Shown piece after piece: positions 6,082-21,502 of a stretch of DNA of 32,873 nucleotides. The notes beneath the pieces are model-generated. The model was not told where the DNA came from, made no database searches, and saw nothing but the letters and a program-made list of their open reading frames with translations. The translations under genes and the position numbers were made by a program. This DNA comes from a virus, in the IMG/VR virus record IMGVR_UViG_3300032311_000652, positions 1-32,873 of that record. One strand, given 5' to 3'. The first letter of the stretch is position 1. Each line of letters starts with the position of its first letter.

Positions 6082-6092
6082 TAATAAGTTTT

Positions 6093-6398
6093 GTCGGGGT
6101 GCCCTGTTCCCGAATCTCTTCGTTATACGAACTACTGTACCTATATCTAGGTGCGTGAGGAGGCTGTTCTCACCTCAAAACTTATATCTCAAACCGGAGT
6201 TTGAGGGTGCTAATCGACGTATCGAGTTAGCGGGGATTACTATGGGTGTAGTTCTCCACTACTTGCCTGCTGTCCCATTCCAGCGCCCTCTGTCCCACGA
6301 AATCTAGCTGGTTATTTCTAGATTCCAGAGGCGTAATCGTTTTCAGAGTTTATACAACCAATATAAACTTTAATCTGAATAACTAATTACGGTCCACG
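6093..6398 (-). ncRNA. candidate structured noncoding RNA, about 300 nt
   Basis: No convincing protein gene covers most of this stretch, but the minus strand is full of stems. A closing helix TAATCGT/ACGATTA bounds an AGTTTATA/TATAAACT hairpin extended by CAGA/TCTG. Then come CCTCTG/CAGAGG around AATCTAG/CTAGATT, GTAGT-GGAGA-ACTAC, a bulged CTAACTCGA/TCGATTAG, CTCAAAC-TCCG-GTTTGAG and CCTA-GATA-TAGG. It ends just upstream of tRNA-Ser. It lacks the signatures I know for tmRNA, RNase P, SRP RNA or group I introns. It may be a leader or spacer processed with the tRNA, or an independent RNA. Its 5' end overlaps a possible 36-codon ORF. Confidence 0.5.
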
Positions 6399-7438: not shown

Positions 7439-7993
7439 TTATGCTCTAATTGTTACAGTACCTTCCCACGGACCTAGAAACTCTAACCAGCTTTCATGGT
7501 CAACTGTAATTGGAAACTTTTTTCTATTTGAAAGAAGTTGGTAATAGGTAGGTTTAAATGGTTTAAGTCTAGGAAGCCAACGACCTACTGGAGCTTTATC
7601 ACCTTTTAACCCATTACAATGTGTACAAGAAGAAACAATATTCTCCCAATGAGATAATCCGCCTAAACGCCTAGGAATAACATGGTCATAAGTTACCTCA
7701 TTAATAGTAAGAGGCTTCTCACAATATGCACACACACCGTGGTCTCTATAAAAAAGAGAATCGCGCCTAAGCTTCACAACTTCTTTAGCCTTTACCTGTT
7801 GGTTTCTAGCAATAACAGAAGGCCATTTCATGTTTACAGAAGGAGACTGAATCTTTCTATCGTAGGAGAATACTGGGTGACAAGTTCCATTAAAAACTCT
7901 AGTTACCGCATCCTCGACACAGATAGTATGAATAGGAATCAACGATATTGGCATATAGTTGGAATTAAGAACTAAACATCTTAATCCTATCAT
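7439..7993 (-). CDS. HNH endonuclease, 184 aa
   Basis: The HNH core lies in the C-terminal half: HGVCAYCEKPL, then YDHVIPRRLGGLSHWENIV (catalytic His with the paired Asn), then CTHCNGLKGD, which supplies the second zinc-binding Cys pair. The N-terminal half (VLNSNYMPISLIPIHTICVE...) is the typical lead-in of the 5-methylcytosine-type HNH proteins seen in phages and cyanobacteria. It has a strong ribosome-binding site (AAGGAG) and its own promoter at 8023-8051. It stands next to tRNA-Tyr. Confidence 0.9.
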   Translation of the reverse strand: MIGLRCLVLNSNYMPISLIPIHTICVEDAVTRVFNGTCHPVFSYDRKIQSPSVNMKWPSVIARNQQVKAKEVVKLRRDSLFYRDHGVCAYCEKPLTINEVTYDHVIPRRLGGLSHWENIVSSCTHCNGLKGDKAPVGRWLPRLKPFKPTYYQLLSNRKKFPITVDHESWLEFLGPWEGTVTIRA

Positions 7994-8022
7994 AAATCTA
8001 TCTCCTTTTTGAATTATTATCT

Positions 8023-8051
8023 ATAATAACAAAACTATAAGTATCTGTCTA
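8023..8051 (-). promoter_or_regulatory. sigma70-type promoter for the HNH gene
   Basis: Minus-strand -35 TAGACA (8046-8051), 17-base spacer, -10 TATTAT (8023-8028). Predicted start near 8016 gives a short leader to the ATG at 7993. Confidence 0.75.
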
Positions 8052-8069
8052 TAGCAAAACTTATGTTCT

Positions 8070-8145
8070 TGGTACTACCTCCTGGACTTGAACCAGAACT
8101 CCGAGCTCCACAAACTCGGGTGCTAACCAATTACACCAAGGTAGC
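8070..8145 (-). tRNA. tRNA-His(GUG), alphaproteobacterial type
   Basis: Acceptor GCTACCT/AGGTAGT, CCA encoded. Stem CGAGT/GCTCG with loop TTGTGGA gives GUG; T-loop TTCAAGT. Position 73 is A and the base before G1 is A, so the usual G-1:C73 pair is missing. This is the arrangement described for many alphaproteobacteria. Confidence 0.93.
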
Positions 8146-8148
8146 TAA

Positions 8149-8217
8149 ACTACTGCTCCGATTCGAACGGTGTCCTAGTCTTGTCAATCTGTGTTTCCCA
8201 ACAACACCGACAGTAGT
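8149..8217 (-). tRNA. tRNA-like element, probably degenerate
   Basis: A perfect 7-bp acceptor-type stem (ACTACTG/CAGTAGT), a D-arm-like hairpin (GTGT/ACAC with TTGGGAA) and a canonical T-loop TTCGAAT are present. The segment where the anticodon arm belongs (AGATTGACAAGACTAGG) does not pair, and no CCA follows. It may be a decayed tRNA or a tRNA mimic. If the loop is TTGACAA the anticodon would be GAC. Confidence 0.5.
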
Positions 8218-8317: not shown

Positions 8318-8475
8318 TGGTGCCCACACGACGACTCGAACGCCGGACCTATACATTACTTTTTGGTATTTAAAGCTTTAGGCTTTTCATACCCATAAAC
8401 AGCTAACATTAAGCTAGCTGGTAGCGTTACCCGCTACGGAATAGTGTATTGCTCTACCAACTGAGCTATGGGGGC
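8318..8475 (-). tRNA. tRNA with an 82-base insertion in the anticodon loop
   Basis: The two ends form a normal tRNA of 76 bases: acceptor GCCCCCA/TGTGGGC (one mismatch), D-arm GCTC-AGTTGGTA-GAGC, variable AGGTC, T-arm CGGCG-TTCGAGT-CGTCG, A73, CCA. The anticodon stem ATACA (8445-8449) pairs perfectly with TGTAT (8351-8355), but 89 bases lie between instead of 7. The insert folds into hairpins GTAGCG-GGTAA-CGCTAC, AGCTAGC-TTAAT-GTTAGCT and GGTAT/ATACC. Removing 82 bases would leave loop CTAGTAA (AGU, Thr) or CTATTAA (AUU, Asn), depending on the junction. It is far too short for a group I intron core. Confidence 0.8.
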
Positions 8476-8595
8476 TTAATGTATAATAAGGGATAGAAAA
8501 GTTAAGACAATAATAGGCATCCAAAATACAAAGCTAACAATCTTTGCCAGTTCAAATGCTGATTCTGCTTTTCTAAAAACTTTTGAAGTACTCAT
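8476..8595 (-). CDS. 39-aa single-pass membrane protein
   Basis: Encodes MSTSKVFRKAESAFELAKIV followed by a hydrophobic helix (SFVFWMPIIVLTFLSLIIH). AAGGA sits just upstream of the ATG. The stop codon directly abuts the 5' end of the insertion-bearing tRNA. Too small to classify; likely an inner-membrane microprotein. Confidence 0.65.
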   Translation of the reverse strand: MSTSKVFRKAESAFELAKIVSFVFWMPIIVLTFLSLIIH

Positions 8596-8605
8596 AATTT
8601 CCTTT

Positions 8606-8687
8606 TGGTGCGTCTGGAGGGACTTGAACCCCCATGCCGAAGCACTAGTTCCTAAGACTAGCGTGTCTACCGTTTCACCACAGACGC
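8606..8687 (-). tRNA. tRNA-Leu(UAG)
   Basis: Class II with long variable arm. Acceptor GCGTCTG/CAGACGC, A73, CCA. Stem CTAGT/ACTAG with loop CTTAGGA gives UAG. Confidence 0.95.
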
Positions 8688-8694
8688 ATAATAT

Positions 8695-8768
8695 TGGAGC
8701 GGGGTAGGAGAATCGAACTCCTTTGACTAGCTTGGAAGGCTAGGACACAACCAATATGACAACCCCGC
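8695..8768 (-). tRNA. tRNA-Gly(UCC)
   Basis: Acceptor GCGGGGT/ACCCCGC, U73 as usual for Gly, CCA. Stem CTAGC/GCTAG with loop CTTCCAA gives UCC; T-loop TTCGATT. Confidence 0.95.
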
Positions 8769-9461: not shown

Positions 9462-10615
9462 AATATATTTTCTGCTATAGTTTCAGCAGTAGCAGCCCCT
9501 AGCGTCCAGCCAAGATGACCATGTCCTGTATTATACCAAATGTTAGGAACTTTAGAACGTCTAACAACTGGTAACATATTAGGAGTCATTGGTCTCAACC
9601 CGGCCCAAGGAATTACGTGTTCAGTACTAATACCATCAAAGTTATTTTTAACCCAAGAAATTAAAGGGTCAACTCTATCTTTACGAATATCATAGTTGTA
9701 TCCGTTAATCTCAGCTGTACCAGCAATTCTAAAACGATTGCCTAAGCGAGAGGATACAATTTTAGCTTCATCATCTAATAAACTTACTGCTGGAGCGTTA
9801 TCACTATCTCCAACATCTATAGTTATACTATAACCTTTTACAGGGTAGATGTCAAGAGGATCTTTAATTAGTCTAGAGAGTTTAGCACTCTCAACTCCTG
9901 CACAAAGTACCACAGTATCATTCTTAAATATTTTATCTAGTAAATTAAGTTTTAAGTTATATAAAAATTTTACAGCATATTTACTCTTTAAAACTTCTGA
10001 GAGTTTTACGCAAAACTTATGAATATCCCCATTTGCATCATCCGTAGTATATATACCTCCAATAATATTACTATTAACTAGAGAAGGTTCTATTTTACGT
10101 ACCTGATCAGAAGTTAGTAGGTCACGGTCTACTCCTAAATTCCAATACAGTTGGCATGAGCGTTTAGCTTCTTCAAGATATTTTTTATCTTTATAAAAAT
10201 GAAGAATACCTTTTTTAGTTAAATCAAAATCAATACCTTCTTCTTCTGCTATCTTAAAATAGATTTCTCGTGCAGCAAGACCTATTTTAATAGTTTCCTC
10301 AGTATTAAGTATAGATTTACCAGAAGCAGTTGCTTCTAGGAATTTATACAACCAACGATATTTAGTTAGCGAAAAAGAAGGATTGATTAACAGAGGAGCA
10401 TCTTTACGCAATACCCATTTAGATGCTTTAAAGACGTTGGACCAAGTGGTCCAAACGTCGCTGTTGGAAACAGACAGCTGCCCTCCATTTGCATAAGAAG
10501 TCATCATAGCCGCATAAGGTTGAGCCTCTATAACTGTAACATCTACCCCGCGTTTTGCAAGGCTGTATGCTGTAGTAATACCAGTAATTCCTGCACCAAT
10601 TACATAGGCTTTCAT
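9455..10615 (-). CDS. FAD-dependent D-amino-acid dehydrogenase (DadA-like)
   Basis: 386 residues of the DAO fold. An N-terminal dinucleotide-binding motif (VIGAGITGITTAYSLAKRG, then VTVIEAQ) binds FAD. The family segment SYANGGQLSVSN follows, and the C-terminal PWAGLRPMTPNMLPVV and NTGHGHLGWTLG are diagnostic for DadA. Bacterial DadA oxidises D-amino acids and passes electrons to the respiratory chain. It is about 30 residues shorter than typical. The gene directly follows a peroxiredoxin gene. By inference it is an auxiliary metabolic gene that could use D-Ala released from peptidoglycan; its stop overlaps tRNA-Cys by seven bases. Confidence 0.9.
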   Translation of the reverse strand: MKAYVIGAGITGITTAYSLAKRGVDVTVIEAQPYAAMMTSYANGGQLSVSNSDVWTTWSNVFKASKWVLRKDAPLLINPSFSLTKYRWLYKFLEATASGKSILNTEETIKIGLAAREIYFKIAEEEGIDFDLTKKGILHFYKDKKYLEEAKRSCQLYWNLGVDRDLLTSDQVRKIEPSLVNSNIIGGIYTTDDANGDIHKFCVKLSEVLKSKYAVKFLYNLKLNLLDKIFKNDTVVLCAGVESAKLSRLIKDPLDIYPVKGYSITIDVGDSDNAPAVSLLDDEAKIVSSRLGNRFRIAGTAEINGYNYDIRKDRVDPLISWVKNNFDGISTEHVIPWAGLRPMTPNMLPVVRRSKVPNIWYNTGHGHLGWTLGAATAETIAENILG

Positions 10616-20624: not shown

Positions 20625-21502
20625 AAAATAAATTTTATTAAAACATTAGCTTGAGATTAAAGCTAAAAACGATTACCTTTGGACCGTATCTCTTCCATTG
20701 CAGTAGAAGGTTAATCCTTTATCCACTAAGCCTCTATTTCAAGAGTATCTCAGTAGTAATCAGTGCTGCTGCTTTTAAAGTGATGCTGTGCACTTGTCAT
20801 ATTATACTACTCATTAAGCTTTCTAACACCTGCCGACGCAGCTCATTCCCGCTAAAGAATTATGTCAGTCTACTTAATAAACACTTTGGACTTGCGGTCC
20901 TCTATGCACCTCATTCCTTACGGTGAGGTTTTAAGCACTTTTCGTATAATACCGGAGTAGTCTTTGCTTTTTAATAATACCGGAATTAAACCGGCTACCA
21001 TATGTTTAAAAGACATCTGCTCTATCGTTGAGCTAATTATTATGTAAACCTACTACGATGTGCTACTCCCGTTGGTTCATATCTTGTTAGATACAAAATT
21101 CAACACACCGCTCATCTTTCTCCTTGCGGGATACTCAATCTTGTTTCAGGATTCTGTCCATTTCATCTTAAACTTTTCAGCTTAAGTGTCCAGCCACCTT
21201 AACAATACAACACACCCTTCTACGCGAATAGTTGGATTCAGTTGCTACACATTAGTCATCACAGTATAGTAGTTTGCATGTAGAGGTATAGATTGCGGTC
21301 TATTTGTTTCTCACCGATTGGCTCTGAAATCTATCCTTTCGGACCTGTACCTACTAGTCGTGTTTATTGCCATGCGAGATGACACACGGACTAGCCGCTG
21401 ACTTGTGCTTGCATAAACGAACTCTTACGAGCGCAAGATTGTAGGAAATCTTGCTTTGGGTTAGTTACCTAACTTATTCTATCGACGTTATGCCGCCAAT
21501 CT
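20625..21502 (-). ncRNA. candidate giant structured RNA containing a tRNA, about 880 nt
   Basis: Starts after the promoter at 21509-21537 and ends near a TTAGCTT/AAGCTAA hairpin with T-rich tail. No real ORF. GNRA-capped hairpins are frequent: GTTAG-GTAA-CTAAC (21460-21473), CTC-GTAA-GAG (21422-21431), TCC-GAAA-GGA (21334-21343) and CCTCA with an inner CC-GTAA-GG (20909-20928). A perfect 8-bp GCAAGATT/AATCTTGC lies near the 5' end. tRNA-Lys is embedded in the middle. Large size, many GNRA loops and an internal tRNA match what is known of GOLLD RNAs of phages and lake/marine metagenomes. This assignment is by resemblance only. Confidence 0.55.
20971..21042 (-). tRNA. tRNA-Lys(UUU) embedded in noncoding RNA, CCA not encoded
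   Basis: Acceptor TAATAAT/ATTATTA is all A-T; A73 is followed by AAA instead of CCA. D-arm GCTC/GAGC, stem GATGT/ACATA with loop CTTTTAA gives UUU; T-stem GCCGG/CCGGT with loop TTTAATT (C56 replaced). Duplicate of the tRNA-Lys(UUU) at 14487. Confidence 0.85.

Follow-up and report, generated by a model that had tools for sequence, protein, structure and literature searches.

An 82-nucleotide structured insert, probably a short intron, beside the wobble position of a viral tRNA-Thr gene

The IMG/VR virus record IMGVR_UViG_3300032311_000652 (positions 1 to 32,873, the whole stretch of 32,873 nucleotides that we refer to as the window) contains a 158-nucleotide (nt) tRNA gene with an 82-base insert in its anticodon loop, and this is a real feature of the DNA. 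Most probably, it is a tRNA-Thr gene of a bacterial virus that is interrupted by a small structured intron, of 82-87 nt among its homologues, beside the wobble position. This reading is favoured by the occurrence of the insert at one site in two host tRNA species, by anticodons that match the acceptors, by compensated stems, and by an uninterrupted syntenic gene in a relative.

The interrupted gene and the fold of its insert

In its intron mode, ARAGORN called c[8318,8475] as a tRNA-Thr(agt) with an 82-base insert after position 33, while the ordinary mode gave no call for the interrupted tRNA at 8318-8475. When the stretch was searched alone, the Rfam tRNA family (RF00005) matched 8321-8475 with 43.6 bits (E 5e-8; gathering score 29 bits), and the only break in the alignment was at the anticodon loop; the listing of a whole-window Rfam search with fast filters did not include the interrupted tRNA. 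Our own model R1, built partly from the window sequence, scored 175 bits. The parts of the gene are as follows.

8318-8475, minus strand: interrupted tRNA-Thr gene, 158 nt, CCA encoded (ARAGORN -i, Rfam tRNA, model R1)
8443-8475, minus strand: 5' exon with the acceptor 5' strand, D-arm, anticodon stem 5' strand, C32 and U33 (aligned with the homologues and with an uninterrupted tRNA of the phage contig L015)
8361-8442, minus strand: insert, 82 nt (ARAGORN and alignment; conserved in the homologues L106/L144/L211, L212 and L222; edges may shift by one base)
8421-8437, minus strand: insert hairpin 1, GUAGCG-GGUAA-CGCUAC, which hardly varies among the homologues, with an invariant UCC 5' of it (alignment, covariation, fold)
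8400-8420, minus strand: insert hairpin 2, of variable length, with 6 covarying pairs (covariation, fold)
8365-8393, minus strand: insert hairpin 3, with a covarying outer stem GGUAU/AUACC and the invariant apex AGCCUAAAGCU (alignment, covariation, fold)
8318-8360, minus strand: 3' exon with A34 G35 U36 A37 A38 (Thr anticodon), anticodon stem 3' strand, variable loop AGGUC, T-arm, acceptor and CCA (ARAGORN, alignment)

The D, anticodon, T and acceptor stems, together with CCA, make a cloverleaf that places the gene in the tRNA family RF00005. An earlier sequence-only reading had proposed such a gene with an 82-base insertion, a perfect 5-base-pair anticodon stem and a loop of 89 bases instead of 7, and all of this was borne out by the ARAGORN and Rfam results: the stem is AUACA/UGUAU, and the loop of 89 nt becomes one of 7 nt if the insert is removed. 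The same reading described the acceptor, D-arm, T-arm and CCA as intact, which holds for the D-arm, the T-arm and CCA; however, one position of the acceptor stem (GCCCCCA/UGUGGGC) is a C.U mismatch, and the T-stem (CGGCG/CGUCG, with the loop UUCGAGU) includes one G.U pair. The three hairpins that it saw in the insert are those of the minimum-free-energy fold (z -4.7; none of 200 shuffles was as stable). Additionally, an alternative pairing, UCCGUR/YRUGGR, is conserved inside the insert, but it overlaps hairpins 1 and 3, which are themselves kept in all four sequences, and we regard it as a lead only.

In 5.7 megabases (Mb) of shuffled sequence, ARAGORN made a single intron-type call, and none that ended in CCA. 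This result, taken together with the recurrence of the element with covariation in three other lineages, excludes a chance origin.

Homologues, covariation and the uninterrupted counterpart

The sequence-only reading had suggested that the same insert be looked for in related phages, and we found it in three further uncultured phage lineages, twice in tRNA-Thr and once in tRNA-Ala (sizes 82-87 nt).

L106 = L144 = L211 (identical copies): tRNA-Thr, insert of 85 nt
L212: tRNA-Thr, insert of 86 nt
L222: tRNA-Ala, insert of 87 nt

The identical copies were obtained by scanning viral contigs for two tRNA-Thr halves separated by 85-115 bases, with an ARAGORN filter; L212 and L222 came from a degenerate core-pattern scan of viral contigs. 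As the identical copies sit on three separate contigs, an assembly artefact is unlikely. The carrier phages are related but distant, with few proteins in common with the window, mostly 27-54% identical. Outside hairpin 2, all inserts have two segments in common, UCCGURGCGGGUAACGCUAYCA close to the 5' end and the hairpin 3 segment AGCCUAAAGCU; an exact 25-base query taken from the window insert matched no viral contig because hairpin 2 varies. Two further matches, L206 and L207, arose by chance in protein-coding sequence, from a degenerate pattern in which one base was wrong; the core pattern had 11 genome_contigs matches, all apparently fortuitous and without tRNA context. Searches by HNH and peroxiredoxin neighbours led to phage relatives, including L015, none with the insert. 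Model R2, run on 1.06 Mb of collected loci, found no member outside the four families; in 50 whole phage records rich in tRNAs it gave nothing that rose above chance, and it had no match in 274 bacterial genomes, which were searched without a positive control; blastn of the element against INPHARED (50,697 phage records) gave no significant match.

In the alignment of the four sequences, 98.9% of pair cells hold standard pairs, and both sides changed in 24 of 47 pairs. The covariation score was 0.63, as compared with 0.25 for shuffles and ~0.1 for slid partners, and neither any of 500 shuffles nor any slid version came close. The covariation is located in the acceptor (5/7 pairs), anticodon (4/5 pairs) and T stems of the tRNA and in hairpins 2 and 3, with hairpin 1 nearly invariant. 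All tRNA stems are kept by compensatory changes; the sequence-only reading had named halves that drift apart uncompensated in relatives as telling against it. The conserved D-loop and T-loop bases and the encoded CCA are likewise retained in the interrupted tRNAs. If the tRNA gene were dead and the insertion random, this could account for the acceptor mismatch and the unusual A34, but hardly for the presence of one element at one site in four lineages, with compensation throughout, or for the retained CCA and loop bases, and we consider this explanation barely credible.

The anticodon bases stay constant while most stem pairs turn over, and the split anticodon agrees with the acceptor identity: the Thr genes combine C2-G71 with G35U36A37, and the Ala gene combines G3.U70, the Ala identity pair, with G35C36. 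In L222, which has the G3.U70 acceptor, the 3' exon starts with GGC and carries an Ala anticodon. In all homologues the insert boundary lies next to the wobble base, at 33/34 or 34/35. Removal at either position gives the same loop CU-AGU-AA with the anticodon AGU in the window, GGU or AGU (both Thr) in L106 and L212, and GGC or UGC (both Ala) in L222. As both positions give identity-matching anticodons, the exact boundary is uncertain by one base.

An uninterrupted gene was found in L015, which is part of a 202-kilobase (kb) phage contig and has several proteins in common with the window, the larger ones 54-67% identical. The order in L015 is tRNA-Leu(UAG), a small membrane-protein open reading frame (ORF) and an uninterrupted tRNA-Thr(AGU); in the window it is tRNA-Leu(UAG), a homologous 39-amino-acid ORF and the interrupted tRNA-Thr (protein match between window 8479-8739 and L015 18739-18972).

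8606-8687, minus strand: tRNA-Leu(UAG), the upstream neighbour; L015 and L106 likewise have a tRNA-Leu(UAG) upstream of their counterpart tRNA
8476-8595, minus strand: ORF of a 39-amino-acid putative membrane protein between tRNA-Leu and the interrupted tRNA, with a homologue in the same place in L015 (sequence, protein match)

From this synteny, rather than from a tree, we infer that the L015 tRNA-Thr is the orthologous counterpart of the interrupted tRNA. The insert thereby falls under a broad notion of a phage tRNA intron, that is, an anticodon-loop insert whose removal gives a tRNA found uninterrupted in a relative, here tRNA-Thr(AGU) of L015. ARAGORN called no other NGU tRNA-Thr in the window.

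The sequence-only reading left a choice between a new short intron or splicing path and a tRNA-like RNA with another job. The fixed-site covarying element, the identity-matching anticodons and the L015 gene argue for the former and make a decoy less likely. According to the latter, the gene would give a stable tRNA-like RNA that stays unspliced, has an unusually large anticodon arm and serves either as a regulatory RNA or as a decoy or inhibitor, for instance of anticodon nucleases cutting near 33/34. The insert is indeed located where anticodon nucleases such as PrrC, which cuts near position 33/34, would act; it is strongly structured on its own, and the arrays hold other odd tRNA-like RNAs (window 8146-8217; L212 191-265). 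However, a decoy has no need of a split anticodon whose rejoining restores the identity match, as it does for Thr and Ala alike; nor does it call for a counterpart that is uninterrupted and has the same anticodon, or for anticodon bases that stay fixed while most stem pairs change. Thus, we consider it unlikely.

Excision of the insert and comparison with known introns

If the insert is an intron, it would fold independently, the tRNA halves would pair via the anticodon stem, RNase P would trim the 5' end, and excision of the insert and joining of the halves would produce the 7-base loop CU-AGU-AA. The joined tRNA would read ACU/ACC codons, complementing the phage's own tRNA-Thr(UGU). Excision could be RNA-catalysed or could involve a nuclease and an RNA ligase from the phage or the host, and the data fit both. 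The invariant loop and apex segments appear to exceed the needs of a passive hairpin, and excision may be RNA-catalysed; the nuclease and ligase route is equally possible. More tentatively, as a possibility to which we give well under even weight, the insert could be a self-splicing ribozyme of ~85 nt, far below the size of any known self-splicing intron; hairpin 1 together with the invariant hairpin 3 apex would serve as its catalytic core, and it would excise itself beside the wobble base and join the halves.

Several points weigh against a spliced intron. The putative splice site is ambiguous by one base, and the sample is small, with four distinct insert sequences in total. Known self-splicing introns are much larger than this insert. 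As to protein-mediated splicing, searches for the RtcB and RNA_ligase families found no match in the contigs, which is weak evidence as the contigs are fragments, and a search of the contigs for the T4 Rnl1 family, run without a working control, found none either. A34, the wobble base of the window product, is unusual for a bacterial tRNA-Thr, though L015 has it likewise. Finally, the Rfam search of the interrupted stretch gave no family besides tRNA, with no group I intron (RF00028) at E<=5.

Like the group I introns of bacterial and phage tRNAs, the insert interrupts the anticodon loop with an element of conserved fold; however, theirs exceed ~200 nt and contain a P3-P9 core, which is not detectable in the window insert. 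In the same type of search, the positive control, a group I intron in a phage tRNA-Leu of L158, was detected with 59.7 bits. The interrupted gene (L158:614-908, plus strand) encodes a tRNA-Leu(UAA), and the group I intron in it is genuine. The missing RF00028 match, with the control detected, and the missing P3-P9 core led us to reject a group I assignment. A reduced group I intron or a group I-derived insert, spliced with a trans-acting factor, would fit the G that ends the insert in 3/4 sequences under one possible boundary, and the presence of a tRNA group I intron on another phage contig, L158. Against it, Intron_gpI did not match at E<=5 while the L158 intron did, 82-87 nt is too short for a P3-P9 core, and no common helix pattern was seen, all of which makes it very improbable.

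The protein-spliced tRNA introns of archaea and eukaryotes are similar in length and are also located in the anticodon loop, but at the canonical 37/38 boundary rather than at 33/34 or 34/35. A bulge-helix-bulge requires intron 5' bases paired with 3' exon bases. Among the helices of at least 4 pairs kept in 4/4 sequences, none joins these bases, and we reject an archaeal-type assignment. To our knowledge, bacteria lack short tRNA introns of the archaeal or eukaryotic kind. A compact element of 82-87 nt, present in two tRNA species and with an uninterrupted counterpart, turns splicing into a directly testable matter. Self-splicing, if true, would define a new ribozyme class; removal by proteins would mean that bacteria infected by phages have a way of splicing tRNAs that is not yet described.

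According to a 2014 review, the phage introns known then were all in protein genes (PMC3984707). Devoto et al. (2019) described "enigmatic introns" in tRNAs of Lak megaphages, believed to be the first in phage tRNAs (PMC6784885). The statement of the sequence-only reading that known bacterial and phage tRNA introns are group I introns of over 200 bases is incomplete: Lak megaphages have short tRNA introns that are unclassified (PMC6784885), and the L158 tRNA-Leu has a genuine group I intron. The Lak introns resemble the window element in being short anticodon-loop inserts, one of them in a tRNA-Thr, and in having insert-free relatives (PMC6784885). However, the two inserts that we examined in Lak-A1 (~113 and ~93 nt) each seem to combine a hairpin with a nested tRNA-like sequence, and the one in tRNA-Thr seems to be at ~36/37, two or three bases further 3' than the window insert. 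The two interrupted Lak-A1 tRNA genes are at 492335-492523 and ~500003-500167 (L259, MK250015 491400-502000). Model R2 had no match in the Lak-A1 tRNA regions, and as the two inserts also differ in sequence, structure and position, the window insert is not of the Lak sequence type. Thus, the window element would be a different type within a poorly understood kind of phage tRNA intron, with the Lak introns as the closest precedent. In the open-access literature that we searched, phage tRNA introns outside group I are represented by one report, without a mechanism.

Other inserts and RNAs of the tRNA arrays

The contig L212 also carries a tRNA-Lys (L212:3299-3424, minus strand) with a 50-nt anticodon-loop insert of another sequence type (CUU|GACCUAAACAGAUAUGG...GGUGAAAG|UUAA). 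Like the homologue on this contig, this insert is short and located in the anticodon loop, and its removal would give the anticodon UUU; it differs in length and sequence, and hairpins 1 and 2 are absent. On a 175-kb viral contig, L091, tRNA-like genes at 7646-7786, 7953-8087 and 10135-10266 (minus strand) have inserts of ~40-60 nt with a common motif around GUUACUUAG. They are possibly another insert family, though some of their anticodon stems are unconvincing.

The window itself is a phage fragment with 28 other ARAGORN tRNA calls, one GOLLD RNA and one skipping-rope RNA. The GOLLD RNA (20648-21111, minus strand) contains an embedded tRNA-Lys(UUU) at 20971-21042; tRNAs embedded in the GOLLD linker were already known (PMC12286853). 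A skipping-rope RNA adjoins the tRNA array in two of the insert-carrying phages (window 6086-6183, minus strand; L212:927-1023, minus strand). Just downstream of the interrupted tRNA, the stretch at 8146-8217 (minus strand) is tRNA-like, with an acceptor-like 7-base-pair stem ACUACUG/CAGUAGU and a T-loop UUCGAAU, and is without good D and anticodon arms and without CCA. Directly upstream of the interrupted tRNA-Thr of L212, a tRNA-Thr(UGU)-like sequence (L212:191-265, minus strand) lacks the canonical D-loop GG and T-loop sequence and has CCA.
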